DNA of 64,000 bases from Lacticaseibacillus absianus (GTDB lineage Bacteria > Bacillota > Bacilli > Lactobacillales > Lactobacillaceae), in NCBI RefSeq assembly GCF_013407595.1, contig NZ_JABEKX010000001.1:638522-702521 (forward strand), in the 5' to 3' direction. Each line of letters begins with the position of its first letter. The stretch's first letter is position 1. The notes below the pieces were generated by a model. The model had not been told where the DNA came from and made no database searches. It saw nothing but the letters and a program-made list of their open reading frames with translations. The position numbers and the translations under genes were made by a program. Of the stretch, positions 31,365 to 51,212 are shown piece after piece.

Positions 31365-32264
31365 TCAGGCGTTACAATTCAGCGCATGACCATGCCAGTG
31401 AGTTATTTCATATTGAACTGGACTCATCATTTCTAGTCCAGAATGGATCCGAGTGCGGTTATACCACTTCTCGATATATTCGAAGATGTTTGTTCGTGCT
31501 TGTTCAAAAGTGCGGTAATTCTCTGGGAAAACGTAATGTTCCTCTTTTTTGAATGAGGCATGAAATGACTCGATGATTGCATTATCGTACGGCGTTGCTT
31601 TACGACTATACGAGTGCTTAGCGCCGACAGAAATCAGGATTTCTTCGAAGGCAACGCCGGTAAACTGACTGCCAAGATCTGTGTGTACGGTCAATCCTTC
31701 AAAGACGTTACGATCAATCAATGCGTTACTAAATGCTTTAATAACTAAGGTTTCGGTCATATCGCGGCCGTACGCAAAACCGACGATACGGCGTGAAAAC
31801 AAGTCCATGAAGGTACATAAATAAGTCCAACCATCTTTCGCCGTTTGAACGTAAGTAATATCACCGGCCCATTTCTGATTGATAGCTGTTGTACTAAAGT
31901 CTTGTGCCAATAGGTTGTTCCGCTCAGCTACTGGATTTGCTGCTGGTGCTGCGCGATATTTTCGGCGAGTGATCGAACGCAATCCTTCTTCACGCATGAG
32001 CTTTTGGATCAATTTTTGACCAACGTGGTCCTCCCGTTGTTGGTTGATCATAAAGGTGAGCTTGGGTGCGCCGTATCGGCCTTTTGCGGCTTTATAGGCG
32101 ACGTGTAGTTGTGCTCGTATTTCTTCCCGACGCTTCTCGGTTGGCGTTTCTTCGTGATTGCAGTAGCGATAATAAGAACCTCGTGGTACGGATAAAGCAT
32201 CGGTGGCTGTGACGATCGGGAAGTCGTGAGTTTCAATAAAGGCATACAAATCGCGGTTCGTCAC
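31365..32264 (-). CDS. IS3-family transposase orfB (DDE integrase core)
   Basis: 299 residues. An N-terminal HTH_21-like helical region (YYRYCNHEETPTEKRREEIR, GRYGAPKL) precedes the rve integrase core. The catalytic triad is Asp in WAGDITYVQT, Asp in TVHTDLGSQF and Glu in NAIIESFHASFKKE. The start shown is the GTG at 32264, four bases inside orfA; expression is probably as an OrfAB fusion by -1 slippage on AAAAAAAG at 32293-32300, which joins LKK to SLGHLRETKQ and then the OrfB frame. Frame intact and no stop inside, so the element may be active. Confidence 0.95.
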   Translation of the reverse strand: MTNRDLYAFIETHDFPIVTATDALSVPRGSYYRYCNHEETPTEKRREEIRAQLHVAYKAAKGRYGAPKLTFMINQQREDHVGQKLIQKLMREEGLRSITRRKYRAAPAANPVAERNNLLAQDFSTTAINQKWAGDITYVQTAKDGWTYLCTFMDLFSRRIVGFAYGRDMTETLVIKAFSNALIDRNVFEGLTVHTDLGSQFTGVAFEEILISVGAKHSYSRKATPYDNAIIESFHASFKKEEHYVFPENYRTFEQARTNIFEYIEKWYNRTRIHSGLEMMSPVQYEITHWHGHALNCNA

Positions 32265-32521
32265 TTGCTTTGTTTCGCGAAGATGCCCAAGGCTTTTTTT
32301 AGGATCTCATTCTCCTGCTTCATTTGAAGGTATTCGGCTCGCATCTTCGCATATTCTGCACTTGAAGGATCCTTGGTCGATGCTTGTTTATGCTCAGTGA
32401 ACCATTTGCCCAAAGTTGCGATGGGAACGTCGTAGTCTTTACTTAATTCGCCTGGTCCTTTGCCGGCAGCGTGTAGTTCGATGAGCATGTCTTTGAAATC
32501 TTGGTTGTACTTCTTAGCCAT
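32261..32521 (-). CDS. IS3-family transposase orfA
   Basis: 86 residues. The helix-turn-helix is at DMLIELHAAGKGPGELSKDYDVPIATLGKWF and a leucine-zipper-type coiled coil follows (EYLQMKQENEILKKALG). The protein binds the terminal repeats. ATG 32521 follows GGAGGATC. The end contains the slippery A7G where ribosomes shift by -1 into orfB. Confidence 0.93.
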   Translation of the reverse strand: MAKKYNQDFKDMLIELHAAGKGPGELSKDYDVPIATLGKWFTEHKQASTKDPSSAEYAKMRAEYLQMKQENEILKKALGIFAKQSK

Positions 32522-33066
32522 AACAGATCCTCCAGTAATCATACTTTGATGTCATTATACTAGATTCACTGTCTCACTTTTGAGGGTAACACCATTCTAC
32601 GAAGACAACCTGTACGTGTTCTACCCGCTGCCGCACGTCAAGCAGATGCGCTATCTGGACCTTGACCTCTACCATTACTACATCGGGCGTGCCGATCAGT
32701 CCGTCAACGAAAGCGTGATGATCGGCCGGATCGATCAGCAGCTGCGCGTCAACCGCGCGATGGTCGATTTTTACCAGGCCGCAGCCGTCACCGACCCCGC
32801 ACTGGCGCGCTACATGCGCGGCTACCTCGGGATCATTACCGGGATCTCCTCGATCTTGTTGCTGCGCGCGCACACCCAAGCCGCTCTGCAGAAGAAGCAG
32901 GCGCTGTGGCGCTACATCCAAGCGCAAGCCCCGACGCTGTACACGCAGTTGCGCCACGGGCTGATCGGCCGCGCTGTGAACCTCCCCGGTCGAGTCGGGC
33001 GGGCGACGACGGTGCGCGCATACCGCATCGTGCAGCGCGTGTACCAGTTCAACTGAAGCCCATTCT

Positions 33067-35962: not shown

Positions 35963-37051
35963 TCAGCCGATGAACTTAAACTTGCTCCACGGCTTGATGA
36001 ACTCGAGTAGCATCAGTTCCTCCGGGGCGATGTGGCCGATCTTGTTCTTACGCGGCTCACGGTGTGGGGCGAGGACGATCTGCAGCTCGTTCTTGTAGAT
36101 CCCGAAGTTGTCGTTGCCGACTAAGACGTCACCGACCTGGAACTCGTCTGTGTTATCGTGTGGGGCGTTGGGCACGGCCTTGTAGGTCACACGCGACATG
36201 GTGGAGCGGATCACGTTCGGGTTGATGTCGCCGCGGCGGAAGTGCTGTGGCGTCAGCGCGACCGTTTTTTCGATGTCGTTGACACCTGGGACAAAGTCGA
36301 GGTGAAACTGGATCTGGTAACGGTCGATGGCCGCCAAGGCGGCGAGTTCGGCCTCGCTGGCGTAGGCGTTGCCGATGATCACGTCATCGATCAGATTCCC
36401 GGCCCACAGGTGCTTGGCCTGGACTTCGATCGGCAGGCGTCGGTCGGCTTCAAGCGTTGGCAGGCCGTCGTTCACGTTCCACGGGCCCATCGTGCCGACC
36501 TGACTGGCAACGAACGCGGCGCTGTGAATGTTGAACTGGCGGAAGCGCTCGGAACAGGCGACGAAGAAGTCGTAGGGCAGCGCCGTGCCGACTTGTGGGT
36601 AGAAGTTGTGACAGCCGTACAAGAAGCTGGTGTTGGCCTGGTAGCTGACGATGTTGTTCAGGTAGTCGACGTTGTTACTCATGTTCAGCTCGATGATCAG
36701 CCCGTCAGGATTGTAAGAGAGCATCGCTTCGGTCGCCCCGTCGAAGCCCTGGTCGAGCCGGATCCCGGCGACGTGCAAGTCGGCGAAGAACTTCAGATCC
36801 GAATACGAGATGCCGAGCTGGTCGAAGATGCGCGGTGAGACGTCGAGGATGGTCTGATAACCGAGCGTGTTGCCATAGTCGACGATCTTTTGGAACTTAG
36901 CCTTGGTCTCGTCGACAGTGCCGGCGACCTCCAGCATGCTCATGAAGATCCGGGTGAAGCCGTAGCGGTGGCCAAGGTCGAGGTAACGGCGATCGGCTTC
37001 GTAATCACTGTGATCAGGGTAGATGGATAACCCGAGTTGACGCATTGTCAT
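35963..37051 (-). CDS. mupG: 6-phospho-N-acetylmuramidase (DUF871/MupG family)
   Basis: 362 residues, full length. LGLSIYPDHSDYEADRRYLDLGHRYGFTRIFMSML opens a TIM barrel; IRLDQGFDG and IIELNMSNN are the DUF871 core, and a C-terminal beta domain follows (NKIGHIAPEELMLLEFIKPW). MupG of staphylococci cleaves MurNAc-6-phosphate-GlcNAc to MurNAc 6-phosphate and GlcNAc. AGGAGG precedes ATG 37051; a second ATG is at 37045. It is the second gene of an operon with murK, 12 bases apart, and lies beside murQ and an RpiR regulator, which fits a role in peptidoglycan sugar recovery. Confidence 0.88.
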   Translation of the reverse strand: MTMRQLGLSIYPDHSDYEADRRYLDLGHRYGFTRIFMSMLEVAGTVDETKAKFQKIVDYGNTLGYQTILDVSPRIFDQLGISYSDLKFFADLHVAGIRLDQGFDGATEAMLSYNPDGLIIELNMSNNVDYLNNIVSYQANTSFLYGCHNFYPQVGTALPYDFFVACSERFRQFNIHSAAFVASQVGTMGPWNVNDGLPTLEADRRLPIEVQAKHLWAGNLIDDVIIGNAYASEAELAALAAIDRYQIQFHLDFVPGVNDIEKTVALTPQHFRRGDINPNVIRSTMSRVTYKAVPNAPHDNTDEFQVGDVLVGNDNFGIYKNELQIVLAPHREPRKNKIGHIAPEELMLLEFIKPWSKFKFIG

Positions 37052-37063
37052 GGGCAGGACCTC

Positions 37064-37963
37064 CTAGGATTCGTGTTGCCACTTGGGCCAAAAGACGACG
37101 GCATGGGCATTGTTCGTCGGGATGTCGATGAATTCGATCGCTGGCGCCACCTGGTGGACGGCGTCGATCAGCGTCTGACGCACGAGCTGGTTATGCTGGA
37201 GCACCGTGCCAGATAGCGCCACCCGCTGGGGCCGGGGACCGATGAAGCGCGCATAAAGGGTGAGGACCTGGCCCGCGAGCGCGCGGGCGCGGGACTTGAG
37301 CAACGCGATGGCGTCTGGATTGCCCTTGTCGGCCAAGTCGGCGACGATCATCGCGAGTTCGGCATTGGTCTTGCGATCCTGCGCGTAGAAGGTCGCAACG
37401 GCCGTGGCGATGCTAGTGGTCTTCAGGCCTTTGAGCAAGGCGAGTGTCAAGCCGTCGGTCTGGCCAGCATCCGCTTGGTCAAGCACACGTTTGAGGGCGG
37501 CCTTGCTGATGTCATACGCACTGCCTTCATCACCGAGGATGTAGCCCCATCCGCCAACGCGCAGGAACTCACCGTGCTGGCGGCCGTAGACGACTGAACC
37601 GGTGCCGGAGATGACCAGCGCACCGTCTTCGCCTTGAAGGCCGTTCAACAGCGCTAGCTTCGCATCACTGATCACCTGCGTCTCGATCTGGTAGCGACGT
37701 TGGATCGCGCTTGTGACGTCGGCTTGTTTGCCGGAAGTCTCGATCCCGGCGATCCCGAGCAGGATCAATCCGATCTCACCGGGCTCGCGCGGAGTGATCA
37801 ATCGGTCGAGGACGTGAGTCAGATTGGCCATCGCCCCATCTGGATCAAAGACCACATTCCCTGGGCCGCCTGTGACCGATTGGATCAATTGATCCGTCTC
37901 GGGCGCCCAAACTTGTCCGACGATGTGGGTCCCGCCACAATCGACGCCGATCAGATATGTCAT
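37064..37963 (-). CDS. murK: MurNAc/GlcNAc kinase-like protein (BadF/BadG/BcrA ATPase family)
   Basis: 299 residues, the size of MurK. The ASKHA phosphate loop is LIGVDCGGTHIVGQVW; VISGTGSVVYGR and GGWGYILGDEGSAYDISKAALK are the family signatures. MurK of Clostridium phosphorylates MurNAc and GlcNAc at C6. Next to MupG and divergent from murQ, the likely job here is phosphorylation of the GlcNAc that MupG releases. Substrate preference (GlcNAc or MurNAc) cannot be read from sequence. First gene of the minus-strand operon. Confidence 0.85.
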   Translation of the reverse strand: MTYLIGVDCGGTHIVGQVWAPETDQLIQSVTGGPGNVVFDPDGAMANLTHVLDRLITPREPGEIGLILLGIAGIETSGKQADVTSAIQRRYQIETQVISDAKLALLNGLQGEDGALVISGTGSVVYGRQHGEFLRVGGWGYILGDEGSAYDISKAALKRVLDQADAGQTDGLTLALLKGLKTTSIATAVATFYAQDRKTNAELAMIVADLADKGNPDAIALLKSRARALAGQVLTLYARFIGPRPQRVALSGTVLQHNQLVRQTLIDAVHQVAPAIEFIDIPTNNAHAVVFWPKWQHES

Positions 37964-38048
37964 AATGTCCCTCCGTGGTTTGAATTGTTCCGATATTCGT
38001 GACCGGGGCTTGACTTGAAGCCCTTACATGAGTAAATTATAGCTGAAA

Positions 38049-38061
38049 GAAATTTTATTTC
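38049..38061. promoter_or_regulatory. Palindromic operator between murK and murQ
   Basis: GAAAT-TTT-ATTTC is a perfect 5-3-5 palindrome in the divergent intergenic region. The same pattern recurs before the GH1/PTS operon (39998-40010). It is the likely site for the RpiR regulator encoded at 39051. A second inverted repeat, TTGGAA/TTCCAA, lies at about 38082-38099. Confidence 0.6.
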
Positions 38062-38128
38062 AACGTGTCAATTCAATTCTTGGAATTTTTTTCCAAAATG
38101 AGTTGACTCAGCTAAGGAGTACGCGTGA

Positions 38129-39031
38129 ATGAAATCAGAAACTGAACAACGTAATCCCCGTTCGATGAACGTGGACACGATGAGCACTGAGGCGATCTTG
38201 CGTCTGATCAACTCAGAAGACCAAAAAGTCCCGGCGGCGATCGGGCAGCCAGAAGTACTGGCGGCGATCGCACAGGTCGTGGCCGCTGTCGACAGAGCGA
38301 TCGCCTCGGGCGGGCACGTCTTTTATGTCGGTGCCGGCACCAGTGGTCGGCTCGGTGTGCTGGACGCGGCTGAGACCGTGCCCACATACGGGGTGAGTCC
38401 GCAGTTGTTTCAAAGCCTGATCGCAGGCGGCGAAGGCGCAATGATCAAGGCGGTCGAAGGCGCCGAAGACAGCGCGGCACTCGGGCGTGAAGACTTGATC
38501 GCACGGCACTTTGCGCAGAATGATTTTCTCCTTGGCATTGCCGCGAGCGGGCGGACACCTTATGTGATCGGGGCGCTAGATTATGCGCGGTCGCTCGGCG
38601 CGGAAACCGGCGCGTTGAGCTGTAACCCCGACGCCGAGATCAGTAAGCATGCAGACCTGCCGATCGAAGTCGTTGTCGGGCCTGAGGTCGTCACCGGCTC
38701 GACGCGCATGAAGGCGGGGACTGCCCAAAAATTGGTTTTGAATATGATCTCCACGACCAGTATGATTAACGCAGGTAAAGTTTACGGTAATCTGATGGTC
38801 GACGTCTTGCCGACGAACGAAAAGCTGGTCGACCGCGCGAAGCGGATCATCCAGGCGGCAACAGACGTCAGCTTTGAAGAAGCCGCAACGTACTATGAAC
38901 GTGCTGCGCACCGGCCGAAACTTGCGATCGTGATGATCTTGACGGGGCAAGGGGCCGATGCGGCGCAGGCGCTACTCGATGCCTGCGGTGGTCGGATTGC
39001 GCAGGCCGTCAAGCGCGCCAACCAAAACTAA
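38129..39031 (+). CDS. murQ: N-acetylmuramic acid 6-phosphate etherase
   Basis: 300 residues, the usual length. The SIS domain opens with VFYVGAGTSGRLGVLDAAE (about 64-82); EGAEDSAALGREDL contains the active-site Glu region, and VVTGSTRMKAGTAQKLVLNMIST is the second signature. The C-terminus holds a UBA-like helical segment. It splits the D-lactyl ether of MurNAc 6-phosphate, giving GlcNAc 6-phosphate and D-lactate. AAGGAG precedes ATG 38129. It is followed 19 bases later by the RpiR gene and shares the operator region with murK. Confidence 0.96.
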   Translation: MKSETEQRNPRSMNVDTMSTEAILRLINSEDQKVPAAIGQPEVLAAIAQVVAAVDRAIASGGHVFYVGAGTSGRLGVLDAAETVPTYGVSPQLFQSLIAGGEGAMIKAVEGAEDSAALGREDLIARHFAQNDFLLGIAASGRTPYVIGALDYARSLGAETGALSCNPDAEISKHADLPIEVVVGPEVVTGSTRMKAGTAQKLVLNMISTTSMINAGKVYGNLMVDVLPTNEKLVDRAKRIIQAATDVSFEEAATYYERAAHRPKLAIVMILTGQGADAAQALLDACGGRIAQAVKRANQN

Positions 39032-39050
39032 TTAGAGAAGAGGATCCCTC

Positions 39051-39920
39051 ATGAGTGTACGGGGCAATATCCAAAATGCAAGCCACGAATTGTCAACGAC
39101 GGAGAACCAGATCGCCGATTATGTCTTAGCGCATCCGAATGAAGTGCTGAACATGAGCGTACAGGACTTGGCCAAAGCGTCGGGGACCAGCGCCTCGACC
39201 GTCAGTCGGTTTGCCCGGCGGTTGAACTTCGGGGGCTACAACGAGCTGAAACTGCAGTTGTCCGCTGATCTGACGGCCGTAGATAATGATAGCGCCCTTT
39301 ATGAGGAGATCCAGCGCGATGAGAGCCTCTATGCGATCAAGTCGAAGCTCCTGAACAACGCGGAGCGATCGTTGCGGGAGACCGTGGATCAGATCCGACC
39401 GGAGCGCGTTGAAGAAGTCATCACGCGCCTTCAAAAATGCAGGCAGATCCTGCTATTTGGGGTCGGCGCGTCCTACCTCGTGATCGAGAACATCGCCCAG
39501 AAGTGGTCCCGGCTCGGTTATGCCTGTGTCGCCAGTGACGACCCCAACCAGATCCTGCCGCTGATCGTGACGACCAACCCCAAGGACAGTGTGCTGTGGT
39601 TGGTCTCCAACAGCGGGGAGTCGCCGGAGGTCGTCTTAGCGGCGCAGCTGGCCAAAGAAGCCGGGGTCCCGATCATCACGACGACCAAGATGGGCACGAA
39701 TACGCTGAGTCGGCTGGGGGACGTGAGTGTTCAGACCTCGCAGCCGATGGAAAGCAGCACGCGGATCGCGGCCACCCAGTCGCTCCACGCGCAGTTCATG
39801 CTGATCGACATCGTCTACTATGCTTTTGTCAGCAAGCACTATACCAATGCAAGCAAAAATGTAAACATCTCCAGGAAAGCGATCGAAACGTACAAACAGT
39901 CAATGCACAACGGTTTTTGA
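39051..39920 (+). CDS. RpiR-family regulator, MurR-like
   Basis: 289 residues. The N-terminal HTH_6 domain includes TENQIADYVLAHPNEVLNMSVQDLAKASGTSASTVSRFARRL (about 17-58); a SIS domain from about 125 to 260 (LLFGVGASYLVIENIAQKWS, VSNSGESPEVVLAAQLAKEAG) binds a phosphorylated amino sugar. MurR in E. coli responds to MurNAc 6-phosphate and controls murQP. Its place between murQ and the PTS operon, with GAAAT-N3-ATTTC palindromes on both sides, points to control of the whole locus. GAGGATCCC is the binding site for ATG 39051. Confidence 0.9.
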   Translation: MSVRGNIQNASHELSTTENQIADYVLAHPNEVLNMSVQDLAKASGTSASTVSRFARRLNFGGYNELKLQLSADLTAVDNDSALYEEIQRDESLYAIKSKLLNNAERSLRETVDQIRPERVEEVITRLQKCRQILLFGVGASYLVIENIAQKWSRLGYACVASDDPNQILPLIVTTNPKDSVLWLVSNSGESPEVVLAAQLAKEAGVPIITTTKMGTNTLSRLGDVSVQTSQPMESSTRIAATQSLHAQFMLIDIVYYAFVSKHYTNASKNVNISRKAIETYKQSMHNGF

Positions 39921-39964
39921 TTTTCACTGAAAAATCAGACCAATATTTTATTTTGGCGTATTAA

Positions 39965-40024
39965 GAAATTGTGTTTCATTTTATGACATAAACGGTTGAA
40001 ATGTAATTTCTTAGGTGCTACGAT
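39965..40024 (+). promoter_or_regulatory. Promoter and RpiR operators of the GH1/PTS operon
   Basis: TTGAAA (39996-40001), a 17-base spacer and TACGAT (40019-40024) form the promoter. The palindrome GAAAT-GTA-ATTTC (39998-40010) overlaps the -35 box, and a weaker copy GAAAT-TGT-GTTTC lies at 39965-39977. Confidence 0.65.
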
Positions 40025-40051
40025 GAACTCAGCAAAAATGAAAGGGGTTTT

Positions 40052-41500
40052 ATGATGAGCAGAGTCTTATGGGGCGGTGCCACTTCCGCGAGCCAGTATG
40101 AGGGCGGGTTCACGGATGGGAAGGGCCTTGATACGCAAGACTGTCGGCCATACTTACCGCGGACCAGCAATGCGACGACCCAGACGCGGTTGTTGACCCA
40201 AGCGCTGATCGATGAGGCCAAAGACCCAAACAGCAAACAGTTCTACCCGTTCCGGGTCGGCACGAAGGGCTACGAATACGGGTTACAGGATGTGGCGCTC
40301 CTCAAGGAACTGGGACTTGATGTCTACCGGCTGTCGATCAGCTGGTCCCGCCTGTTTCCGACGGGTGAAGAAGTGGAACCGAATCCCAAAGGCGTGGCCT
40401 ACTACGATGCGATCCTGCACAAGCTTCACGATGCAGGGATCAAGATCTTCGTCACGATGAACCACTACGCGATCCCGCTGGCGATCGTTGAGAAGTACCG
40501 TGGTTGGACCAACCGGAAGACGATCGATCTGTATGTCCACTTCGCCGAGTTCGTCCTCGGCAAGTGGGGCGACATCGTGGACTACTGGTTGCCGTTCAAC
40601 GAGATCAACGCCGGATACTTCAGTCCGTATAACGGGGTGAGTCTCGTCAAGCCGGCTGATGCAGGCTACGACTACGACGACGTATTCAAGTCGCTGCATG
40701 GGCAGTTCGTGGCGAACGCTAAGACTGTGCAGATCGGACGCAAGCTTGGCGTTAAGGGCACATTCGGCGCGATGGTCTCATGCTTCTGCTATTACCCGCT
40801 GACCCCAAGCCCGGAAGATAATCTGGAATTGGTCAAGGACGAGGAGATCAACCAGTGGTACTGCATGGACATTCTCTCCAAGGGGTACTACCCGTACTAC
40901 GCACAGCCGTTCTTTGATCAACACGACGTGACCTTCGAGATCACTGACGAAGACAAGCGACTGCTACGCGACTATACGTGTGATTTCGTCTCGTTCTCTT
41001 ACTATTCCAGTTCGATCTGCACGGTCCAAGAGAACCAATCACAGACTGCGGGCAACCTGGTCGTCACGACGAAGAACCCTTACCTCAAGGCCAGCGAATG
41101 GGGCTGGCAGATCGACCCAGTGGGGATGCGGACAACGCTCCACAAGGTCTACGACCGGTACAACAAGCCGGTCATCATCTCTGAAAACGGTTTTGGCGCA
41201 CGCGACACGCTGGAAGCAGATGGCGCGGTTCACGACCAATACCGTATCGATTACTTTAAAGCGCATTTTGATGAAATCCTAAAAGCAAAGGAAGAAGGAG
41301 TTGATGTCAGGGCATACATCGCATGGGGCATCATCGATATCGTCTCTGCGGGAAGTTGCGAAATGGCCAAGCGTTATGGCGTCGTGTACGTTGACGCGGA
41401 TAACGAGGGGCAAGGGAGTTATAAGCGGTACAAGAAGGATAGCTATTATTGGTACCGGGACTTCATCAAAAATGAAGCTGCAAAGGAGGAATTGTCATGA
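40052..41500 (+). CDS. GH1 6-phospho-beta-glycosidase
   Basis: 482 residues. LWGGATSASQYEGGF opens the TIM barrel. The acid/base Glu is in YWLPFNEINAG and the nucleophile in PVIISENGFGARD; the phosphate-binding end includes SYKRYKKDSYYWYRD, as in 6-phospho-beta-glucosidases and -galactosidases. It hydrolyses PTS-imported disaccharides phosphorylated at O6 of the non-reducing sugar. First gene of the operon with PTS IIB, IIC, a small membrane protein and IIA. Substrate could be phospho-chitobiose, cellobiose or a muropeptide disaccharide; the neighbours favour an amino sugar. Two ATG codons (40052, 40055) are near AAAGGGG. Confidence 0.93.
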   Translation: MMSRVLWGGATSASQYEGGFTDGKGLDTQDCRPYLPRTSNATTQTRLLTQALIDEAKDPNSKQFYPFRVGTKGYEYGLQDVALLKELGLDVYRLSISWSRLFPTGEEVEPNPKGVAYYDAILHKLHDAGIKIFVTMNHYAIPLAIVEKYRGWTNRKTIDLYVHFAEFVLGKWGDIVDYWLPFNEINAGYFSPYNGVSLVKPADAGYDYDDVFKSLHGQFVANAKTVQIGRKLGVKGTFGAMVSCFCYYPLTPSPEDNLELVKDEEINQWYCMDILSKGYYPYYAQPFFDQHDVTFEITDEDKRLLRDYTCDFVSFSYYSSSICTVQENQSQTAGNLVVTTKNPYLKASEWGWQIDPVGMRTTLHKVYDRYNKPVIISENGFGARDTLEADGAVHDQYRIDYFKAHFDEILKAKEEGVDVRAYIAWGIIDIVSAGSCEMAKRYGVVYVDADNEGQGSYKRYKKDSYYWYRDFIKNEAAKEELS

Positions 41501-41799
41501 AGAAAGTACTGTTCGTTTGTTCGGGTGGCATGTCGAGTGCCATCGTTGAAAAAGCGTTGAAGGCGGAAGCAGACAAGGCGGGCGTTGAGCTTGAAGCTAA
41601 TGCGGTCGGTTCTGGCGAAGCACAGGACGCGATCGCTGGCAACGACTGGGACATCGTCTTGGTCGCACCACAAGTGCGCAACCGGTTCAACACGTTCAAG
41701 GAGTATGCAGACGCCAAAGGGATCCGGATCGAAAACATCCCACCGCGCGACTACAGCCCGCTTGGCGGGAAGCATCTCCTCGATCTCATTCAAAAATAG
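41497..41799 (+). CDS. PTS IIB component, lactose/cellobiose family
   Basis: 100 residues. KKVLFVCSGGMSSAIVEKAL carries the phosphocysteine Cys8. DWDIVLVAPQVRNRFN is the family second block. It accepts phosphate from IIA and passes it to the sugar bound by IIC. It overlaps the GH1 stop by four bases (ATGA), so translation is coupled. Confidence 0.95.
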   Translation: MKKVLFVCSGGMSSAIVEKALKAEADKAGVELEANAVGSGEAQDAIAGNDWDIVLVAPQVRNRFNTFKEYADAKGIRIENIPPRDYSPLGGKHLLDLIQK

Positions 41800-41813
41800 A
41801 GAGGTGAAATACC

Positions 41814-43085
41814 GTGAATAGTTTCTTCGATATGTTGGACACGAAGTTTGCCCAACCGCTCTCCAAAATCTCCGAACAGCGCCACTTGCGCGCGGTTCGT
41901 GATGGGGTCATCTCAGCGATCCCACTGATCATCATCGGGAGTTTCTTCCTGATCGTTGCGATGCCACCGATCCCAACTAACTGGGCCTACCATGTATGGG
42001 CGACTGCGCACGTTCAGCAGATCATGATCCCATACCGGATGACCTTCTGGATCATGTCCTTATACATCTGTTTTGGCGTCGGCTATAACCTCGCGAAGAG
42101 TTATGACCTCGATCCACTGGCCGGGGGGCAGCTGTCCGTTGCGACCTTCCTGCTCTCCATCATGCCGACCTTCACCAAGTCTGGGAGCATCATGCTCGAC
42201 ATGTCCACGCTGGGCTCTGTCGGGATCTTCCCCTGCATGATCTTGGCGATCTTTGCGGTCGAAGTATTGCGTTTTTGCAAGCAGCACAACCTGATGTTCA
42301 AGATGCCAGAGCAAGTGCCAAGCTCTGTTGCGCACTCGTTTGAAGCGGTCATCCCCGCCGGGTTTCTGATGATCGTGATGACCCTGATCAACGTGGTCTT
42401 CAAGATCAACCTGGAGCAAGTGATCCAGACGATCTTCTCCCCACTGGTCAAGGCAGGGGATACCCTGCCAGGGGTCTTGGTCCCTGTCTTCTTGGTCGTC
42501 TTCTTCTGGTTCTTCGGGATCCACGGGGATTCGATCGTGGGTTCCGTTGCCCGTCCCGTATGGCTGCAGTACTTCACTGAGAACGCTGAAAAAGTGGCGC
42601 ACGGTGGGGTCGCAACGCATATTGCACCCGAGACCTTCTTCCAGTGGTTCATCTGGATCGGTGGGTCTGGTGCGACCATCGGCTTGATCATCGCGGCGCT
42701 GATCGTCGGTCGGGCCAAGTACACGAAGTCGATCACCCGCGCTTGCGCGGTCCCAGCCCTGTTCAACATCAATGAGCCGATCATCTTCGGTTTCCCTGTC
42801 ATGCTGAACCCGATCTTCTTGATCCCGTTCATCCTGGCGCCGATCGTGATGACGCTGGTCACTTGGTTCGCCTTCTCCCTCGGCCTTGTGCACATGATGT
42901 TCGTTCAGCCGCCTTGGACGCTGCCGGCACCGATCGGGGCCTTCCTGGCCACCGGTGGTGACTGGCGCGCGATCGTTTTGTGCCTGATCAACATTGCTAT
43001 TGCGACCGTGATCTACTTCCCATTCGTTCGGATGTACGATAAGAACGAACTGGCGAAGGAAAACGGTGAGATCGTGGAGGACTGA
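41814..43085 (+). CDS. PTS IIC component, lactose/cellobiose family
   Basis: 423 residues from GTG 41814, which follows GAGGTGAAA. About ten hydrophobic segments; RDGVISAIPLIIIGSFFLIVA, WFFGIHGDSIVGSV and CAVPALFNINEPIIFGFPVMLNP (the conserved NEP loop) are typical of cellobiose-family permeases. It forms the membrane channel and transfers phosphate onto the incoming sugar. The permease sits beside mupG, murK and murQ, whereas known MurNAc permeases (MurP) belong to the glucose family. This points to import of a disaccharide or amino sugar rather than MurNAc alone. Confidence 0.95.
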   Translation: MNSFFDMLDTKFAQPLSKISEQRHLRAVRDGVISAIPLIIIGSFFLIVAMPPIPTNWAYHVWATAHVQQIMIPYRMTFWIMSLYICFGVGYNLAKSYDLDPLAGGQLSVATFLLSIMPTFTKSGSIMLDMSTLGSVGIFPCMILAIFAVEVLRFCKQHNLMFKMPEQVPSSVAHSFEAVIPAGFLMIVMTLINVVFKINLEQVIQTIFSPLVKAGDTLPGVLVPVFLVVFFWFFGIHGDSIVGSVARPVWLQYFTENAEKVAHGGVATHIAPETFFQWFIWIGGSGATIGLIIAALIVGRAKYTKSITRACAVPALFNINEPIIFGFPVMLNPIFLIPFILAPIVMTLVTWFAFSLGLVHMMFVQPPWTLPAPIGAFLATGGDWRAIVLCLINIAIATVIYFPFVRMYDKNELAKENGEIVED

Positions 43086-43088
43086 TCA

Positions 43089-43376
43089 ATGATGCGTACA
43101 TCTCGGAACCGCAGACAGCCGAACTTCTTGAGCGCTGCCGTGTTCATCGGTGGGCTTGCGATCATCAACCTGGTGATCATCTTTCTGAATGATACACTTC
43201 ATTCCAAACCGCTGATGTTTTTCGGTAATACGATTGGGATCGGCTTGCTGTTCCCAGCTGTACTGCTGTACATTGAGCGTAAAGAGAAATTCGTGCTCCC
43301 ACGGTACTTATATTTTGTGGTGATGACGACGATCGCGATGAGCATTCTCATGTACTTGTTCGTCTATCGTTTCTAA
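43089..43376 (+). CDS. Small membrane protein in the PTS operon
   Basis: 95 residues with three predicted helices (about 15-33, 41-60, 71-92) after a short basic N-terminus. No family recognised. GGAGGACTG precedes ATG 43089; ATG 43092 is a second choice. It lies three bases after IIC and 21 before IIA. Such small proteins in PTS operons are not characterised; it may be an accessory subunit of IIC. Confidence 0.65.
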   Translation: MMRTSRNRRQPNFLSAAVFIGGLAIINLVIIFLNDTLHSKPLMFFGNTIGIGLLFPAVLLYIERKEKFVLPRYLYFVVMTTIAMSILMYLFVYRF

Positions 43377-43397
43377 TTTAGGAAGTAGGGTTTATTC

Positions 43398-43712
43398 ATG
43401 GAACAACTTGAAAATCAGATCTTTGAGATCATTACGCATGCTGGCACGGCGCGAGCAAACCTGTATGAAGCACTCGAAGCAACGCGCGAAGGCGACACCG
43501 ACAAGAGTGCGGCCTTGATGAAGGAAGCGGATAGCGAGATGACGCTTGCCCACAATGTGCAGACCGAGCTGATCACGGCCGACCTGCAAGGGGAAACGAA
43601 GATCTCACTGCTGCTGATCCACGCGCAAGACCAGCTGATGACCACGATGAGTGAACAGACCCTCATTCAGCAGATGATCAAGATGCAAGAGGAACTCAAC
43701 GCTTTACGCTGA
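43398..43712 (+). CDS. PTS IIA component, lactose/cellobiose family
   Basis: 104 residues, all-helical. The phosphorylated His is His75 in LLLIHAQDQLMT. It takes phosphate from HPr and gives it to IIB, completing the PTS of this operon. It forms a trimer in the family. Followed by a terminator, so the operon ends here. Confidence 0.95.
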   Translation: MEQLENQIFEIITHAGTARANLYEALEATREGDTDKSAALMKEADSEMTLAHNVQTELITADLQGETKISLLLIHAQDQLMTTMSEQTLIQQMIKMQEELNALR

Positions 43713-43759
43713 TATATTTCCGCGGCAGTGTATGGTCGCAGAATGTGACACGTTAACAG

Positions 43760-43785
43760 GACACGCAGAGAGTGCGTGTCTTTTT
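43760..43785 (+). terminator. Terminator of the PTS operon
   Basis: An 8-bp stem (43760-43767 with 43773-43780) with five T residues after it. Confidence 0.8.
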
Positions 43786-43816
43786 ATGGGAATACTTGTG
43801 AAAGGAGTAACAAGAC

Positions 43817-45517
43817 ATGGAACGTAAATTTGGGTTATTGGTCGCTGGGTTAATCGGTTTGACCGTCACGGCGGGGGCGCTGAGTGCAGGTCACGAGGTC
43901 AAAGCGGCAGAGGACGTGGCACCGCTGGAATGGCAAAGCTCCGTTCAAAAAGCCGTGGACGCCTTCGAAGACAAGGGCGGCTACTATACTGGGCGAAAGA
44001 TCCCGGAAGGCTTCACGCAGAATACATGGATGGGGATGGATGAGGCGGTCACGCTTGATCCGAGCGGTCAGGCGACGATCGATGTGGCGAAGGCGCGGCC
44101 TTCCTTCTGCTCGTCTGCGATCTATATGCTCTTCTTGAAGTCATTATCTAACTGGTCGACCGACTACAACCATCCGATCACGGCGAAGAGTTGGATTAAC
44201 CTGAAGCCTTACACTATGGACGACACGGCTTACCCGATTCAAGGTGACGGTGTCGGAGCATGGGGCATGGCCAACTCTAACGGCCCTGGCTATGCCGTTC
44301 TTCTTAACCAGTTGGGCATGGGGAAGAATTACTATGTTGGCTTGGCGAGTGAATATTCCACTGAAGTGGCTCGGCTTGCCGCATTCGCGCAAGGCCAGAA
44401 GTACGATGTGATGAAGATCTTCTGGAACGACTCGGTCGGCAAGGACGAGGCGGGTCACCTCGTCCTCTATCTAGGTCGTGAGGATGAGACGGATCCGACG
44501 ACTGGGAAGGTGACCCATTACATCAAGTACTGGTCTTCTAATGGCAGCACGACGGACATCAATGCCGGTTATAGCGTCGCTAAATGTAATATCGATAAGA
44601 TCAAGCGGGCCGTCTTTACGCGCGTGACCGCGCCGTCTAATATCAATCAGGTCGAGTCGATCGCACCCGTAGACAAGAATCAGTTCCTTGCTGATCTGAG
44701 CGATAAGATCGATGCGACAACGGCGCAGGTCAAATCCTTCTGTGGGATCGACGATCAAGCGACGGTGCAGGCGCAGGCGGTCGATCTCAACGGGCAAGTG
44801 CTCCAGCAGATCCAGGTCAGCTATCCAGATGGTCCCGTTCATTTTGGCGCTTATCAAGCGGTAGCACCAAAACTGGCCGGCTATCGCTATGTCGGTGTCG
44901 ATAACGGTAAGGTGACGGGCAAGAAGAGTGTGCCGGCGACGGGTATGCTCGCAAACCGTGGCGTGAACGGCACGATCAGCTTTGTTTACGCACATACGTA
45001 TACGCTGACGACGTCAAGACAAACGGGAACGATCACCTATCTCGACCAGCAGAAGCGGACGTGTCATGCGGCTGGGCGGACAACACCAGTGACGTTCTTG
45101 CGTGTGACAGATCAAGTGACGCATCGGACGGTGACCTATTATCGGTTGGGCGTTGCTGATGCGCCAGCACTGACACTCGCTGGGGTACCCGCAGTGTCAG
45201 GCTGGCAGGTCGGCACGCAGGTCACGCTGCCAGCGGTCGCCGCGCCTTCTGTCAAAGGGCTCACACCTAACGTGACGGCGATCAAGCTGATTGCACGCGC
45301 CGGTGCGGCGGCCCCACAGGGTACGATCAGTTACCATCGGACGCAGGCTCCTGCCATCGCGAAAAAAGTCAGTGACAACACCGTCAAGACCGCGGCGAAG
45401 ACGACCAAATTGCCACAGACTGGCGAGACAACGACCCACATGATGGCATTGATCGGTGGCGCGGTGTTGCTGATCATCACTGGCACGTTGCTGAACCGCA
45501 AAAAAGCGGACGATTAG
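43817..45517 (+). CDS. LPQTG-anchored protein with a putative Cys/His hydrolase domain
   Basis: 566 residues. A signal peptide of about 30 residues is followed by a domain of about 230 residues, with Cys98 in ARPSFCSSA, GVGAWGMANSNGPGYA (146-160), MKIFWNDSVGKDEAGHLVLYLG with His214, and YWSSNG (238-243). The decayed copy downstream keeps the same blocks, so they are the conserved core. Cys early and His in a GHLVLYLG strand is the arrangement of NlpC/P60- and CHAP-type peptidoglycan hydrolases, but no known family was matched with certainty. A beta-rich region with a possible MucBP-like repeat follows (about 305-395), then LPQTG at 532-536, a hydrophobic helix and RKK. Its place next to a MurNAc-salvage operon suggests a wall-bound muropeptide hydrolase. 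Confidence 0.72.
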   Translation: MERKFGLLVAGLIGLTVTAGALSAGHEVKAAEDVAPLEWQSSVQKAVDAFEDKGGYYTGRKIPEGFTQNTWMGMDEAVTLDPSGQATIDVAKARPSFCSSAIYMLFLKSLSNWSTDYNHPITAKSWINLKPYTMDDTAYPIQGDGVGAWGMANSNGPGYAVLLNQLGMGKNYYVGLASEYSTEVARLAAFAQGQKYDVMKIFWNDSVGKDEAGHLVLYLGREDETDPTTGKVTHYIKYWSSNGSTTDINAGYSVAKCNIDKIKRAVFTRVTAPSNINQVESIAPVDKNQFLADLSDKIDATTAQVKSFCGIDDQATVQAQAVDLNGQVLQQIQVSYPDGPVHFGAYQAVAPKLAGYRYVGVDNGKVTGKKSVPATGMLANRGVNGTISFVYAHTYTLTTSRQTGTITYLDQQKRTCHAAGRTTPVTFLRVTDQVTHRTVTYYRLGVADAPALTLAGVPAVSGWQVGTQVTLPAVAAPSVKGLTPNVTAIKLIARAGAAAPQGTISYHRTQAPAIAKKVSDNTVKTAAKTTKLPQTGETTTHMMALIGGAVLLIITGTLLNRKKADD

Positions 45518-45541
45518 TCGAGTCTCTGAAGCGAGATGAAC

Positions 45542-46407
45542 ATGAAAAAAGTCAAGGGGGCACCGCGTCTATGGCGCATAGCCGCGCAGCAGGCACTCGC
45601 TCAGTTCGAGGATGGCAGGGGGATTATACGGGGCACAAGCAGTTGCCGCAATTCTGTCGGACCGCCTGGGAGGGGCTAGACCAGGTGCTGAGGGTGGCAG
45701 CTGGTGGTCAGATGACCGTAGACATCAGCCGGGTGAGACCGTCATTTTGTTCGGCTGCGGTGTATACGCACTTTCTTAAGACATTTGAGCTGTGGGCGCA
45801 GTTGACACATCAAGCTGTCGCGCATGAGGTGTGGGCATCACTGCGGCCGTACACCGTTCAGGACCGGCAGTGTCCGGTCCAGCACGCGGCGATGGCGCTT
45901 GGGGAATGGCCAACGCCAATGGCCCAGGGTTTGCGGCATTGGCACACCGCATCGGCTTTGGTGAGAGTGTGTATGTCGGCTTATCTGCAGACTATCCCGA
46001 TCTGATGACTCGAGTGGCTCGCTTTCGAGTGGGGCGGCGATACGATGTGATGAAGCTCTTCTGGAATGAATCGATCGGTCGGGACGAAGCCGGTCACCTC
46101 GTCTTACTCGTAGGTGATGCTCTCGCAACAGGACCCTGAGACAGGGGAATGGTGTCTCGACTACTGGTCTTCCAGTGGCCCTCAGGGGGACTTGGCGGGC
46201 GGCGATGGGACGACCAGTTGCTCGATTGACCGGATCCAACGGGCGGTGATCACACGGGTCACAAACCCAAGCGCAATTCTCCAAGTTCAGAATTTGCATC
46301 CGGATGACAGAGACAGATCTCTGGCGGCGCTCAAGGCTGACATCGATGCAAGTCCGATGGCACTACAGGTCGCTGCGGGAATCGGCAGTCAGGATTTTAA
46401 ACAATGA
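45542..46407 (+). pseudogene. Decayed paralogue of the LPQTG hydrolase domain
   Basis: Homologous to the catalytic domain of the gene just upstream: it keeps FEDGRG..DYTGHK, RPSFCSAAVY, GAWGMANANGPGFAAL, MKLFWNESIGRDEAGHLVLL and YWSSSG. At least three frameshifts separate the blocks (near 45620, 45890 and 46115), and it has no signal peptide or wall anchor. It appears to be a tandem duplication that has decayed. The active-site-like Cys and His are still coded, so decay is recent or the copy diverged before it broke. Confidence 0.8.
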
Positions 46408-46677: not shown

Positions 46678-46863
46678 ATGGATGAGAAACCTGAGATTGT
46701 TCGGATCAAATTAGAGGATGACCAGCGGCGGGCGCCACTGAGCACTGCCACCAAGGCCTTTCAAGTTAAGATTGACACCAACAAAACGGTTGTAGTGTAT
46801 AACCATATCCAGGGCTATATCCTGGATGCCTTGATGAAGGCGGTGTTCGCCAATGCTCATTGA
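46678..46863 (+). CDS. IS66 accessory protein TnpA-like (short)
   Basis: 61 residues. The first of three IS66 genes; it has a short helical region with basic residues and overlaps tnpB by 11 bases. It is much shorter than typical TnpA (about 130 residues), but similar short versions occur in lactobacilli. Required with TnpB for transposition in related elements; how it acts is not known. Confidence 0.65.
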   Translation: MDEKPEIVRIKLEDDQRRAPLSTATKAFQVKIDTNKTVVVYNHIQGYILDALMKAVFANAH

Positions 46864-47245
46864 TATCCACAAGCTCAGCGGCATTTATTTGATTTGTGGT
46901 AAGACCGACTTGCGTCGTGGTATTGAAGGCTTGGCTGGAGTTATCCAAGAGGAATATCATCTGGATCCGTACAGTCGGGCACTGTTTCTATTTTGCGGGA
47001 CCCGCAAGGATCGGTTTAAGGCCCTATATTGGGCTGGCGATGGATTTATCCTGCTCTACAAGCGAATTGAGGACGGCCGGCTACAGTGGCCAACGACTCA
47101 AAATGAGGTTAAGAAACTCCACGCTAAGCAATTAGAGCGTCTTTTATCTGGTTGGGGATTGGAGTCGACGGTAAACCAGTTTTGTCCAAGAAATAATGGT
47201 AGAAAGCCCGTCGCACCAGTGGTACACTCAACCCAACATCAATGA
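46853..47245 (+). CDS. IS66 accessory protein TnpB
   Basis: 130 residues. It contains the IS66 Orf2 block: KTDLRRGIEGLAGVI, PYSRALFLFCGTRKDRFKALYW, GDGFILLYKRIEDGRLQWP. ATG 46853 lies inside the end of tnpA. It acts with TnpA and TnpC in transposition, role not established. Not to be confused with the RNA-guided TnpB nuclease of IS605 elements. Confidence 0.9.
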   Translation: MLIDIHKLSGIYLICGKTDLRRGIEGLAGVIQEEYHLDPYSRALFLFCGTRKDRFKALYWAGDGFILLYKRIEDGRLQWPTTQNEVKKLHAKQLERLLSGWGLESTVNQFCPRNNGRKPVAPVVHSTQHQ

Positions 47246-47261
47246 ATCGAGGGCTACGCCC

Positions 47262-48791
47262 ATGGTCACTACGACTGAAGATCTGCTCAAACAGGCACTC
47301 GAGCAAAATCGAGAACTCATGAAACAAGTTCAGGCGCTCACCGAGCAGGTCGCGTATTTAACTCGGAAACTCTACGGCTCCCATTCGGAGAAGATGACCG
47401 ATCCTAATCAGCTGTCTCTTCTGGGAGATAACAGTGTTTTTACCGACCCAGAGCAGACTGGGCAACAAAGCGAAGAAATAGTCGTAGTAAAAGCCAAGCG
47501 CAAGCCTAAAAGCAGTCGCGGTGAATCAATCGATCCAAAATTGCCCATCGAAGAAACCGTGATCACTCGAAAAAGTGAGCTGTGTGATCATGGTCATCAG
47601 CTGGCTAAAGTGGGCAAGCATCTCGTGCGTGAAGTGGTCCAACACATACCAGGCAGATTGTATGTTGAGCGTATCTTTGAAGAGACATACAAGTGTCCGG
47701 AATGTGAGCTCGAGGATGGTGTGAGTCACCTGTATCAAGGACAAGCGCCGCAGGCGTTGTTCCCGCACAGTCTCGCGACCTCGTCGCTAGTCGCTGAGTT
47801 GCTCTATCAGAAATACATGCTGGGTACACCGCTTTATCGTCAGATATTAGAATGGCGCCGAGCGGGTCTTCTACTCAGTGAGACGACCATGACAAACTGG
47901 GTAATCAACGCGGCAGAAATCGTCAGACCAGTCTATGACCTGATGCACGAGTACCTCCTGTCAGAGCGGTTCCTGCAAGGCGACGAAACACCGTTCCAAG
48001 TGCTGAGAGAACCGGGTAAGTCGGCAAAGAGTAAATCATACATCTGGGTAGAACGCAGTATTCGCCTCGCCGACCAGCAGGTCGTCTACTACGCTTATGG
48101 CAACACCCGCTCTGGTAAGTTCGCGCAGCGAATATACTCAGGCTATACTGGGGTCCTGCAGTGTGATGGCTATGCCGGATATAATCTTCTTGGCGACAGC
48201 GTCATCCGTGTTGGTTGTTGGGCGCACGTTCGGCGTAAATTCTACGACGACGCAGCGAAGGTTAAAGGTAAATTTACCAGCACGAAACCGCTAGAGCTGC
48301 TCAACCAGATGTTCCACCTTGAGACACAATGGGCGCTCTTATCACCGGCCGAGCGTCTGAAATGTCGACAGGCAGAACTAGAACCTCTGATTGATCAGTT
48401 CTGGGCTTGGTGTGATCAGGCCGCGCCGGCGCCGAAATCGCGACTGGGTGTCGCTCTGACCTACGCTTTGAATCAGCGGTGCATGCTTAATCGAGTCTTG
48501 GAGTTTGGCGAGATTGATTTGAGCAACAATGCATCAGAGCGGAACATGAAGTCCTTCGTGATTGGACGAAAGAACTGGCTGTTCGCCACCAGCCCAAAGG
48601 GGGCCGAAGCCAATGCGATCTGGATGACGATCGTTGAGACTGCCAAAGCCAACGGACTGGATCCACGAAGTTACATTGAGCGACTTCTGCATGGGCTGTC
48701 ACAACTGTCTGCCTCACCAACGAGGGAACAAGCTGAGGCTTATTTACCTTGGAATCAGCATCTAAAGCCAGCAACTAGCGAAACCGCGTAA
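47262..48791 (+). CDS. IS66-family transposase TnpC
   Basis: 509 residues. A coiled-coil N-terminus (LLKQALEQNRELMKQVQALTEQ) is followed by a zinc-finger region (CDHGHQLAKVG ... YKCPEC), and the IS66 DDE catalytic core. Motifs include FLQGDETPFQVL, VLQCDGYAGYN, GCWAHVRRKFYD and EIDLSNNASERNMKSFVIGRKNW. A small C-terminal IS66_C segment ends the protein. The ATG at 47262 was taken because the 22-residue extension overlaps tnpB. The frame is intact. Confidence 0.95.
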   Translation: MVTTTEDLLKQALEQNRELMKQVQALTEQVAYLTRKLYGSHSEKMTDPNQLSLLGDNSVFTDPEQTGQQSEEIVVVKAKRKPKSSRGESIDPKLPIEETVITRKSELCDHGHQLAKVGKHLVREVVQHIPGRLYVERIFEETYKCPECELEDGVSHLYQGQAPQALFPHSLATSSLVAELLYQKYMLGTPLYRQILEWRRAGLLLSETTMTNWVINAAEIVRPVYDLMHEYLLSERFLQGDETPFQVLREPGKSAKSKSYIWVERSIRLADQQVVYYAYGNTRSGKFAQRIYSGYTGVLQCDGYAGYNLLGDSVIRVGCWAHVRRKFYDDAAKVKGKFTSTKPLELLNQMFHLETQWALLSPAERLKCRQAELEPLIDQFWAWCDQAAPAPKSRLGVALTYALNQRCMLNRVLEFGEIDLSNNASERNMKSFVIGRKNWLFATSPKGAEANAIWMTIVETAKANGLDPRSYIERLLHGLSQLSASPTREQAEAYLPWNQHLKPATSETA

Positions 48792-48886: not shown

Positions 48887-48934
48887 TTCTATTAGCCGCA
48901 TCGGGTGACCGGTGCGCGAAGGGGAGGAAAAGTT

Positions 48935-50218
48935 ATGCAAGCATTCATTGCATTCATGGAAAAGCACTTCTTGCCGATCGCCTCTAAGGTCGGGAACCAG
49001 CGCCACTTAGTCGCGATCCGCGATGCGTTCGCCGCGACCATGCCTTTGATGATCCTGGGCGCCTTTGCGACCTTGATCAACAACCTGCCGATCCCAGGGT
49101 ATCAGGATCTGATGAACAGGATCTTCAGCGAGAAGATCAAGGGCGGCGCGTATATCTGGACGACGCTTGGGGGCAACCTCTGGAACGGGACGTTCGCGGT
49201 CTTAGCCGTTTTGATCGCGTTCATGGTCGCCTACAACTTAGCGAAGTCTTACGGCACCGCCGCGGCCGCGGCGGGGGTCACCAGCCTGGGTTCGTTCTTC
49301 GTGGTCGGCGGTGCGGCCGGGATGGACAGCACAGGGCTGTTCATCGCCTTGCTGGTCGCGATCATTTCCACTGAGATGTTCCGGAAACTGTACGCGAACC
49401 CGAAGCTGGTCATCAAGATGCCGGACAGTGTGCCACCTGCAGTGGCGACCTCATTTGCGGCACTGTTGCCGAGCATGATCACGATGACGGTGCTGGGGCT
49501 GGTCACCACGTTCTTCCAGGCGGCACACGTCGAGAACCTGGTCACGAGTTTTTACCAAGCCGTGCAGCAGCCGTTCATGGGCATGGCCAACACCTACCCG
49601 ACGGCACTTCTGCTGGCCTTCATCACGCCGTTCCTGTGGTTCTTCGGGCTGCACGGTGCGAACATGATCGACCCATTCATGCAGACGATCAACGCCCCAG
49701 CGATCGCGGCCAATGCGGCGGCACTGAAGGCGGGCAAGGCGATCCCGTATATCGTCAACAAGCCTCTGTTTGACTCCTTCGTCAACCAAGGGGGGACCGG
49801 GCTGACGATCGGGCTGATCATCGCGATCTTCCTGTTTGCCCGCAAGAACAAGGCGTACACGTCCATCGCGGGGTTATCCTTCGCCCCAGGGCTTTTCAAC
49901 ATCAACGAGCCACTGACGTTCGGCCTGCCGATCGTCTTGAACCCGATCCTCTTGATCCCGTATGTGCTGACGCCAATGATCGCGATCTCGGTCGCATACT
50001 TCGCGACGGCCTCCGGCTTCATGCCGGCCTGCACGGTCATGGCCCCATGGGTCACGCCACCGATCATCGGCGGGATCATCTCCACGGCCAGCTGGCAGGG
50101 TGGGGTGATTGCAGCCCTCAACCTGGTCCTCTCGGTCGTGATCTACGCCCCATTCGTCGTGATGGCGACGGCCGTTCAGAACAAGAAGGACGAAGCGGCC
50201 GCGGCACAACGCGCCTGA
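48935..50218 (+). CDS. PTS IIC component, lactose/cellobiose family (second copy)
   Basis: 427 residues from ATG 48935 behind GGGGAGGAAAA. The permease has the usual blocks: RDAFAATMPLMILGAFATLIN, FLWFFGLHGANMIDP and LSFAPGLFNINEPLTFGLPIVLNP. It transports and phosphorylates a disaccharide. No IIA or IIB gene is next to it; it must borrow them, perhaps from the operon at 41497-43712. The IS66 element sits 66 bases before the start, so its original promoter has been split. Closed by a terminator. Confidence 0.94.
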   Translation: MQAFIAFMEKHFLPIASKVGNQRHLVAIRDAFAATMPLMILGAFATLINNLPIPGYQDLMNRIFSEKIKGGAYIWTTLGGNLWNGTFAVLAVLIAFMVAYNLAKSYGTAAAAAGVTSLGSFFVVGGAAGMDSTGLFIALLVAIISTEMFRKLYANPKLVIKMPDSVPPAVATSFAALLPSMITMTVLGLVTTFFQAAHVENLVTSFYQAVQQPFMGMANTYPTALLLAFITPFLWFFGLHGANMIDPFMQTINAPAIAANAAALKAGKAIPYIVNKPLFDSFVNQGGTGLTIGLIIAIFLFARKNKAYTSIAGLSFAPGLFNINEPLTFGLPIVLNPILLIPYVLTPMIAISVAYFATASGFMPACTVMAPWVTPPIIGGIISTASWQGGVIAALNLVLSVVIYAPFVVMATAVQNKKDEAAAAQRA

Positions 50219-50228
50219 TCTTCGCTCG

Positions 50229-50255
50229 ACAGCCTCCTCGTGAGGCTGTTTTTTT
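50229..50255 (+). terminator. Terminator of the second PTS gene
   Basis: 8-bp perfect stem (50229-50236 with 50242-50249) followed by T residues. Confidence 0.85.
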
Positions 50256-50359
50256 GCCTGTCGGTGTGGCGACACTAGGCAGGGGGACGACTAGGGACCA
50301 GTTGCCCCGGCACATGTCACAACTTGTCACAAAAACGTGAAATGTCACATCCAATCGCG

Positions 50360-50365
50360 TACAAT
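50360..50365 (+). promoter_or_regulatory. -10 box of the second RpiR gene
   Basis: TACAAT at 50360-50365. Upstream the heptamer TGTCACA occurs three times (50315-50321, 50325-50331, 50343-50349), a candidate site for autoregulation. Confidence 0.4.
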
Positions 50366-50401
50366 AAGGTTATCCGATGGGTTTTGGAGGGGGAACAAAG
50401 G

Positions 50402-51184: not shown

Positions 51185-51212
51185 GGCGCGGTGGCCAGAC
51201 CGACCAAAGCGC

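Follow-up and report, generated by a model that had tools for sequence, protein, structure and literature searches.

The known systems closest to the locus described here share parts of it and differ in others. The locus lies at positions 35963 to 46407 of a 64,000-nucleotide stretch of Lacticaseibacillus absianus DNA (the window; contig positions 638522-702521), where genes for salvage of N-acetylmuramic acid (MurNAc) stand beside a lactose/cellobiose-family (Lac-family) phosphotransferase system (PTS) and a gene for a wall-anchored protein. The chb cluster of Lacticaseibacillus paracasei, which serves chitobiose use, shares with the window a three-part Lac-family PTS, a GH170 enzyme from the same side of that family, and a 6-phospho-disaccharide proposed to be split intracellularly; unlike the window, it has a GntR regulator and a DUF3284 protein and no MurQ, MurK, or surface protein (PMC12791066). 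The pairing of a Lac-family PTS with GH170 as such is already published, for chitobiose. The mupG-murQ-murP-murR operon of Staphylococcus aureus (PMC6262408; record L367) resembles the locus in its GH170 enzyme, MurQ, RpiR regulator, and salvage of a disaccharide, and differs in its glucose-family MurP, in a GH170 enzyme from the other side, and in the absence of MurK from the operon. In Bacillus subtilis, the murQ-murR-murP-amiE-nagZ-ybbC cluster likewise joins wall-sugar salvage to extracellular trimming enzymes, but import is by MurP, AmiE, NagZ, and YbbC take the place of a Cys/His wall protein, and no GH170 is named for the cluster (PMC5061867). Nearest in its importer is a plasmid of Priestia megaterium (L246), which carries Lac-family IIB (54% identity) and IIC (55%), GH4, IIA, GH170 of the window's side, a BadF kinase, and RpiR, with MurQ and AnmK nearby. 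There GH4 replaces GH1, a glucose-family PTS and a GntR gene are additional, and a Cys/His protein is not among the genes listed.

Families in the window were assigned from Pfam and NCBIfam, and all genes named for this locus in the original prediction were found at the coordinates it gave, with intact frames. The genes for GH170 and a BadF-type kinase (MurK) lie on the minus strand; murQ, RpiR, GH1, IIB, IIC, a small membrane protein, IIA, and the wall-anchored protein follow on the plus strand. The predicted PTS is complete, with Lac-family IIA, IIB, and IIC all matched. The accompanying remark that this exact combination lacks a description held, as no account of the route was found in the open-licence literature.

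Two sides of GH170 and gene arrangements around MurQ

A 66-row GH170 tree was split into two sides with a support value of 100. Side B (37 rows) includes S. aureus MupG, whose record has the order mupG-murQ-EIIC-murR, and side A (29 rows) holds the window protein, the MurK-linked genes, ChbE, and Borrelia genes located after those of a Lac-type PTS. The placement of S. aureus MupG rests on the tree, because it sits on a long branch and its median identity to side B (33%) is only slightly higher than to side A (30%). The window protein is 47% identical to ChbE, the chitobiose enzyme; the earlier label mupG was right as to family but, by the tree, not as to side. For L. paracasei to grow on chitobiose, both ChbE and a PTS of cellobiose type are required (PMC12791066), and S. 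aureus MupG cleaves MurNAc-6P-GlcNAc (6P, 6-phosphate; GlcNAc, N-acetylglucosamine), its authors having expected other functions for distant members (PMC6262408). Three genomes of the window's genus carry a cluster that matches the published chb cluster in gene order and in a 139-residue DUF3284 protein; DUF3284 was not found at the window locus, and both matches in the window's genome lie on another contig.

Within the family Lactobacillaceae, MurQ matches were obtained in 90 of 201 genomes. For the locus sample, each of the 95 strong MurQ matches outside the window's genome was taken with as much as 20 kb of surrounding sequence, and the window was added (n = 96); neighbors within 6 kb of MurQ were scored by tblastn with reference proteins. 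MurK was found at 22 loci, and a Lac-family IIC at 26, divided as 20/22 loci with MurK and 6/74 others (Fisher P = 2e-13 for MurK with Lac IIC, the related genomes not being independent). GH170 of side A was present at 18 loci, every one of which had MurK and 17 a Lac IIC; the sole exception, L107, stops at a contig edge. Side B, at 36 loci, was accompanied by a glucose-family EIIBC in 32, by a Lac IIC in 6, and by MurK in none. Two main arrangements therefore surround MurQ, and the window belongs to that of GH170-A, MurK, and Lac IIC, which occurs together at 17 loci of 7 genera, the window included. Conserved linkage in the Lactobacillaceae had been named beforehand as a check, and the core set does recur across this sample.

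From the company that side A keeps, we infer that it frees GlcNAc-6P and that each locus brings enzymes for the other half of its sugar. With MurK and MurQ present, that other half would be MurNAc and the sugar GlcNAc-MurNAc, which on the ChbE-side placement is likelier than the S. aureus sugar MurNAc-GlcNAc. The other half would be left unphosphorylated, which would explain why MurK occurs only with side A.

The window IIC scored above the lacE subfamily cut-off (TIGR00410; 387 versus 236 bits), and in the IIC tree it paired with the Priestia plasmid protein (support 100), the nearest seen, inside a 17-row group (support 95) in which all other rows come from MurQ-bearing stretches. ChbC fell outside this group, and other MurQ-linked Lac IICs formed separate groups. 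No glucose-family importer was matched in the window by tblastn with two glucose-family references, and none of the five glucose-family EIIB proteins in the window's genome exceeded the MurP cut-off (best, 204 versus 516 bits); by these profiles the genome is without a clear MurP.

Several observations adjoin these results. A second Lac-family IIC lies at 48905-51960 with an RpiR-like gene and rpiA; it is nearer ChbC in the tree, though its placement is unsure owing to a long branch. A further MurQ arrangement, with another Lac-family IIC, GH170-B, NagZ, and RpiR, was seen in L101, L102, and L105, the last two also having a beta-lactamase-family (AmiE-like) protein. A PF00756 esterase stood near MurQ at 15/22 MurK loci versus 5/74 others (L112:8793-9557 and relatives), and it might strip O-acetyl groups from wall sugars. 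In two stretches from the window's genus, AnmK and RpiA (L112) or NamZ and an acylphosphatase (L113) adjoin the locus, and both stretches contain short GH25 genes with no signal peptide by eye. Plasmid records of Enterococcus faecalis (L244:6348-13063) and Clostridioides difficile (L245:3745-12153) combine GH170-A with PTS IIC, an amidohydrolase, DgaE, and a sugar kinase, and perhaps serve a disaccharide whose terminal residue is a glucosaminic acid. A Borreliella burgdorferi protein annotated as alpha3-beta1 integrin binding (L368:3501-4598, L247:5001-6098) is a side-A homologue whose position directly after Lac-type PTS genes suggests an intracellular phosphoglycosidase; from that position, we take it to be BBB07. 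BBB07 has been described as integrin binding (PMC5073149).

Shared palindrome, surface protein, and Cutibacterium remnants

The palindrome GAAATNNNATTTC occurs as perfect copies between murK and murQ and before GH1, with a one-mismatch copy close to the latter. Four sites with at most one mismatch were counted in the window versus 1.0 expected, a number reached by 3 of 100 shuffles. Across the whole genome, a 15-base form gave 52 sites with at most two mismatches versus 23 for a control pattern, and only three with at most one, two of them being the murK/murQ and GH1 sites. In 23 related stretches, 27 perfect copies were found in 14, compared with 0.9 in base shuffles and 1 to 3 for five control palindromes; these are placed mainly ahead of IIC or in the interval from MurK to the esterase, and 9 stretches have no copy. 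A weakly similar stretch joins the region upstream of GH1 to the murK/murQ region (2/40 shuffles as good), whereas that upstream of the surface protein gene has no significant stretch in common with it (20/40 shuffles as good). The presence of the palindrome at both the murK/murQ and GH1-PTS promoters and its recurrence in relatives suggest one RpiR regulon, with the palindrome as a putative operator. Together with the linkage, this supports the earlier view of the Lac-family PTS and the MurNAc-salvage genes as one unit.

The predicted sortase-anchored protein was borne out by a C-terminal LPXTG anchor above the cut-offs of TIGR01167 (26.1 versus 15.9 bits) and PF00746 (20.9 versus 20 bits). 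Its N-terminal Cys/His domain had no Pfam model in the 72 members scanned and no PDB match, and hhalign gave no match to it from NlpC/P60 (7 rows) or CHAP (10 rows), both small alignments. As sole query, the surface protein found no relative in the named genomes; a two-row alignment search of these yielded 108 relatives among 159 candidates, of which 80 were kept. By record titles, members come mostly from gut and rumen Bacteroidales, with some clostridia and two Cutibacterium. In a 71-row alignment, C98 and H214 were each kept in 70 rows and N242 in 67. Fusions in two gut genomes among the 72 members joined the domain to a beta-lactamase-family domain and NamZ in a Blautia metagenome-assembled genome (MAG) (L258) and to GH3 and dockerin in a Ruminococcus MAG (L262); SLH was found in 3 members, dockerin in 3, and LPXTG in 2. 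We take NamZ to be the YbbC of B. subtilis. The domain marks a secreted family that lacks a Pfam model and may act on the wall. It was found in none of the viral contigs or plasmids searched and, among 398 genomes of the window's phylum, only in the window's own. Tblastn with the reference proteins of the locus gave matches only in L250, L256, L258, and L262 among the Cys/His loci, and no salvage enzyme was among the 25 most frequent of the 168 Pfam families in 101 neighbor proteins from 19 such loci outside Bacteroidales. One record labeled "Bacteriophage sp." (L242, MT839170.1) has a Cys/His gene accompanied by genes resembling those of a serine hydrolase and a prolyl oligopeptidase, on DNA that looks bacterial by eye.

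In Cutibacterium modestum, the Cys/His gene, which overlaps one for a BadF kinase, precedes the first half of a GH1 gene (58% identity to the window over 247 amino acids), the end of an IIC gene, and IIA (55%). The IIC end is 62% identical to the window and 40% to the Lactobacillaceae IIC_A; IIB was not found at this locus. MurQ and a glucose-family EIIBC lie upstream, and the RpiR gene is broken. In Cutibacterium avidum, the Cys/His gene has murQ, spread over two frames, on one side and a GH1 fragment on the other. In two phyla, murQ loci thus contain GH1, IIC, IIA, and the Cys/His gene as a group, which suggests their joint movement between phyla. The window GH1 scored under the cut-offs of the named 6-phospho-beta-glucosidase models. 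When its signature residues were compared with 27 other GH1 proteins, a few changes were common with Cutibacterium (e.g., A140, where 26 of 27 have Glu), not enough to point to a substrate.

Proposed route and its alternatives

The locus is read here as a single RpiR (MurR-type) regulon that serves the use of a disaccharide from the cell wall, a proposition that we hold to be evenly balanced. The Lac-family PTS (IIA, IIB, IIC, and the small membrane protein) would import GlcNAc-beta-1,4-MurNAc, the kind of product that muramidases or lysozyme leave after peptide removal, and phosphorylate its GlcNAc end. GH170 would split GlcNAc-6P-MurNAc into GlcNAc-6P and MurNAc, MurK would phosphorylate the freed MurNAc, and MurQ would convert MurNAc-6P to GlcNAc-6P and D-lactate. 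The wall-anchored Cys/His protein, a putative hydrolase, may trim wall fragments outside the cell, perhaps taking off the peptide, and GH1 may cut a second phosphorylated sugar from the same PTS, perhaps with de-acetylated glucosamine. In Priestia, too, one Lac PTS is accompanied by two phosphoglycosidases (GH170 and GH4), from which one might guess at such a second, for example de-acetylated, form of substrate. In the original prediction, a surface enzyme freed muropeptide sugars, a Lac-family PTS imported a disaccharide, and MupG or GH1 cut it ahead of MurK and MurQ; the unit, the Lac PTS, and the linkage were supported, and GlcNAc-MurNAc is the likelier sugar with GH170 on the ChbE side. 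The fullest form of the proposal is tentative and somewhat doubtful: a separate MurNAc-salvage route with Lac PTS import of GlcNAc-MurNAc, a ChbE-type GH170, and MurK and MurQ in one RpiR regulon, a new wall-anchored Cys/His hydrolase family outside, and transfer of a GH1-PTS-surface set between Bacillota and Actinomycetota. Were the proposal true, several genera of lactic acid bacteria would use muramidase-type wall fragments by a path assigned nowhere in the open-licence literature searched, GH170 enzymes labeled MupG by default would form two groups with different sugars, and gut and skin bacteria would contribute an unnamed family of secreted proteins with a possible action on the wall. 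A testable rule would set ChbE-type GH170 with MurK and a Lac PTS against MupG-type GH170 with MurP.

A number of findings weigh against the proposal. The MurQ tree leaves four supported independent pairs, of which MurK, Lac IIC, and GH170-A agree in about 2 to 3, with almost none opposing, which is not significant. The split between arrangements is imperfect, given the side-B loci with a Lac IIC; GH170 was not found within 6 kb at three loci that have MurK and a Lac IIC, and 31/96 MurQ loci have none of these genes within that distance. Side A is not specific for wall sugar, since the E. faecalis and C. difficile loci lack an annotated murQ. The PF00756 esterase was not found in the window by tblastn with an esterase reference. 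Among the places examined, only the window and, as remnants, Cutibacterium combine GH1 with this gene set. At the surface protein, the palindrome was not found, and a hairpin with a U run, not listed by a simple terminator scan, parts its gene from the PTS operon. Most Cys/His relatives belong to Bacteroidales, in which salvage neighbors were not found, and the commonest neighbors in 70 Cys/His loci looked housekeeping-like by eye. PDB relatives of MurK were hexokinase 2e2n (E 5e-23) and 8zo3, named as a MurNAc/GlcNAc kinase (E 1.4e-22). The motifs of MurK, aligned by eye, clearly favor neither sugar: Ser99 precedes the motif Asp, which some relatives share, but the GGWG loop is like that of GlcNAc kinases.

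One alternative is an S. aureus-like logic with another importer, in which the Lac PTS takes MurNAc-GlcNAc, GH170 yields MurNAc-6P and GlcNAc, MurK acts on GlcNAc, and MurQ acts on MurNAc-6P. The same gene families would serve, S. aureus MupG has the needed activity (PMC6262408), and the MurK of Clostridium acetobutylicum is described as MurNAc and GlcNAc specific (PMC10465942). However, the window GH170 is on the ChbE side, and S. aureus-type loci also yield free GlcNAc, yet none of the side-B loci has MurK; we consider this order of the sugars unlikely. That a GH1-PTS operon simply for beta-glucosides, cellobiose, or chitobiose landed beside a MurNAc operon and works separately is distinctly unlikely: the GH1 and IIC models are named for beta-glucosides and cellobiose, the window's genome has 12 GH1 matches, and the two nearest GH1 relatives in the genus adjoin glucose-family PTS-like genes (by eye), but the palindrome is common to both promoters, the IIC groups with those of MurQ-bearing stretches and away from ChbC, a Lac IIC recurs near murQ in the family, and GH1, IIC, and IIA remnants lie in the C. 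modestum murQ locus. Quite improbable is a true substrate of GlcNAc-anhydroMurNAc or of a peptide-bearing disaccharide trimmed intracellularly. AnmK adjoins the locus in L112 and Priestia, and beta-lactamase-family and MLE-family genes lie near the Lac IIC in L127 and L157; against this, AnmK, NamZ, NagZ, and AmiE-like references (one each) had no tblastn match in the 64-kb window. We know of no precedent for a Lac PTS carrying a peptide-bearing sugar.

Coordinates and neighboring features

Features of the locus, with positions in the window, strand, and basis of assignment
Feature	Position	Strand	Basis
GH170 6-phosphoglycosidase, ChbE side, labeled mupG	35963..37051	-	Pfam MupG_N + MupG_C; tree
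MurK, BadF-type MurNAc/GlcNAc kinase	37064..37963	-	PF01869; PDB relatives
Palindrome GAAATTTTATTTC, proposed RpiR operator, murK/murQ divergent promoter	38049..38061	.	Perfect copy
MurQ, MurNAc-6-phosphate etherase	38129..39031	+	TIGR00274, 375 vs cut-off 302 bits
RpiR/MurR-family regulator	39051..39920	+	HTH_6 + SIS
Imperfect palindrome GAAATTGTGTTTC, possible second operator	39965..39977	.	One mismatch
Palindrome GAAATGTAATTTC before GH1, overlaps promoter-like -35	39998..40010	.	Perfect copy
GH1 6-phospho-beta-glycosidase, divergent	40052..41500	+	PF00232
PTS IIB, lactose/cellobiose family	41497..41799	+	PF02302; 54% to Priestia IIB
PTS IIC, lactose/cellobiose family	41814..43085	+	PTS EIIC (Pfam); TIGR00410; tree
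Small membrane protein between IIC and IIA	43089..43376	+	Position; no Pfam or NCBIfam match
PTS IIA, lactose/cellobiose family	43398..43712	+	PF02255
Terminator-like hairpin between IIA and surface protein gene	43758..43786	+	-15.5 kcal/mol, z -4.5
Wall-anchored protein: N-terminal Cys/His domain (C98, H214), Muc_B2-like repeat, LPXTG anchor	43817..45517	+	
Decayed second copy of Cys/His domain, frame changes and stops	45571..46407	+	

A small open reading frame at the same place after IIC was seen in several relatives. By eye, IS66-like genes (46853-48791) lie immediately downstream of the decayed Cys/His copy, and a glycosyltransferase-like gene at 30752-33056 is apparently interrupted by an IS3-like transposase pair (31365-32542).

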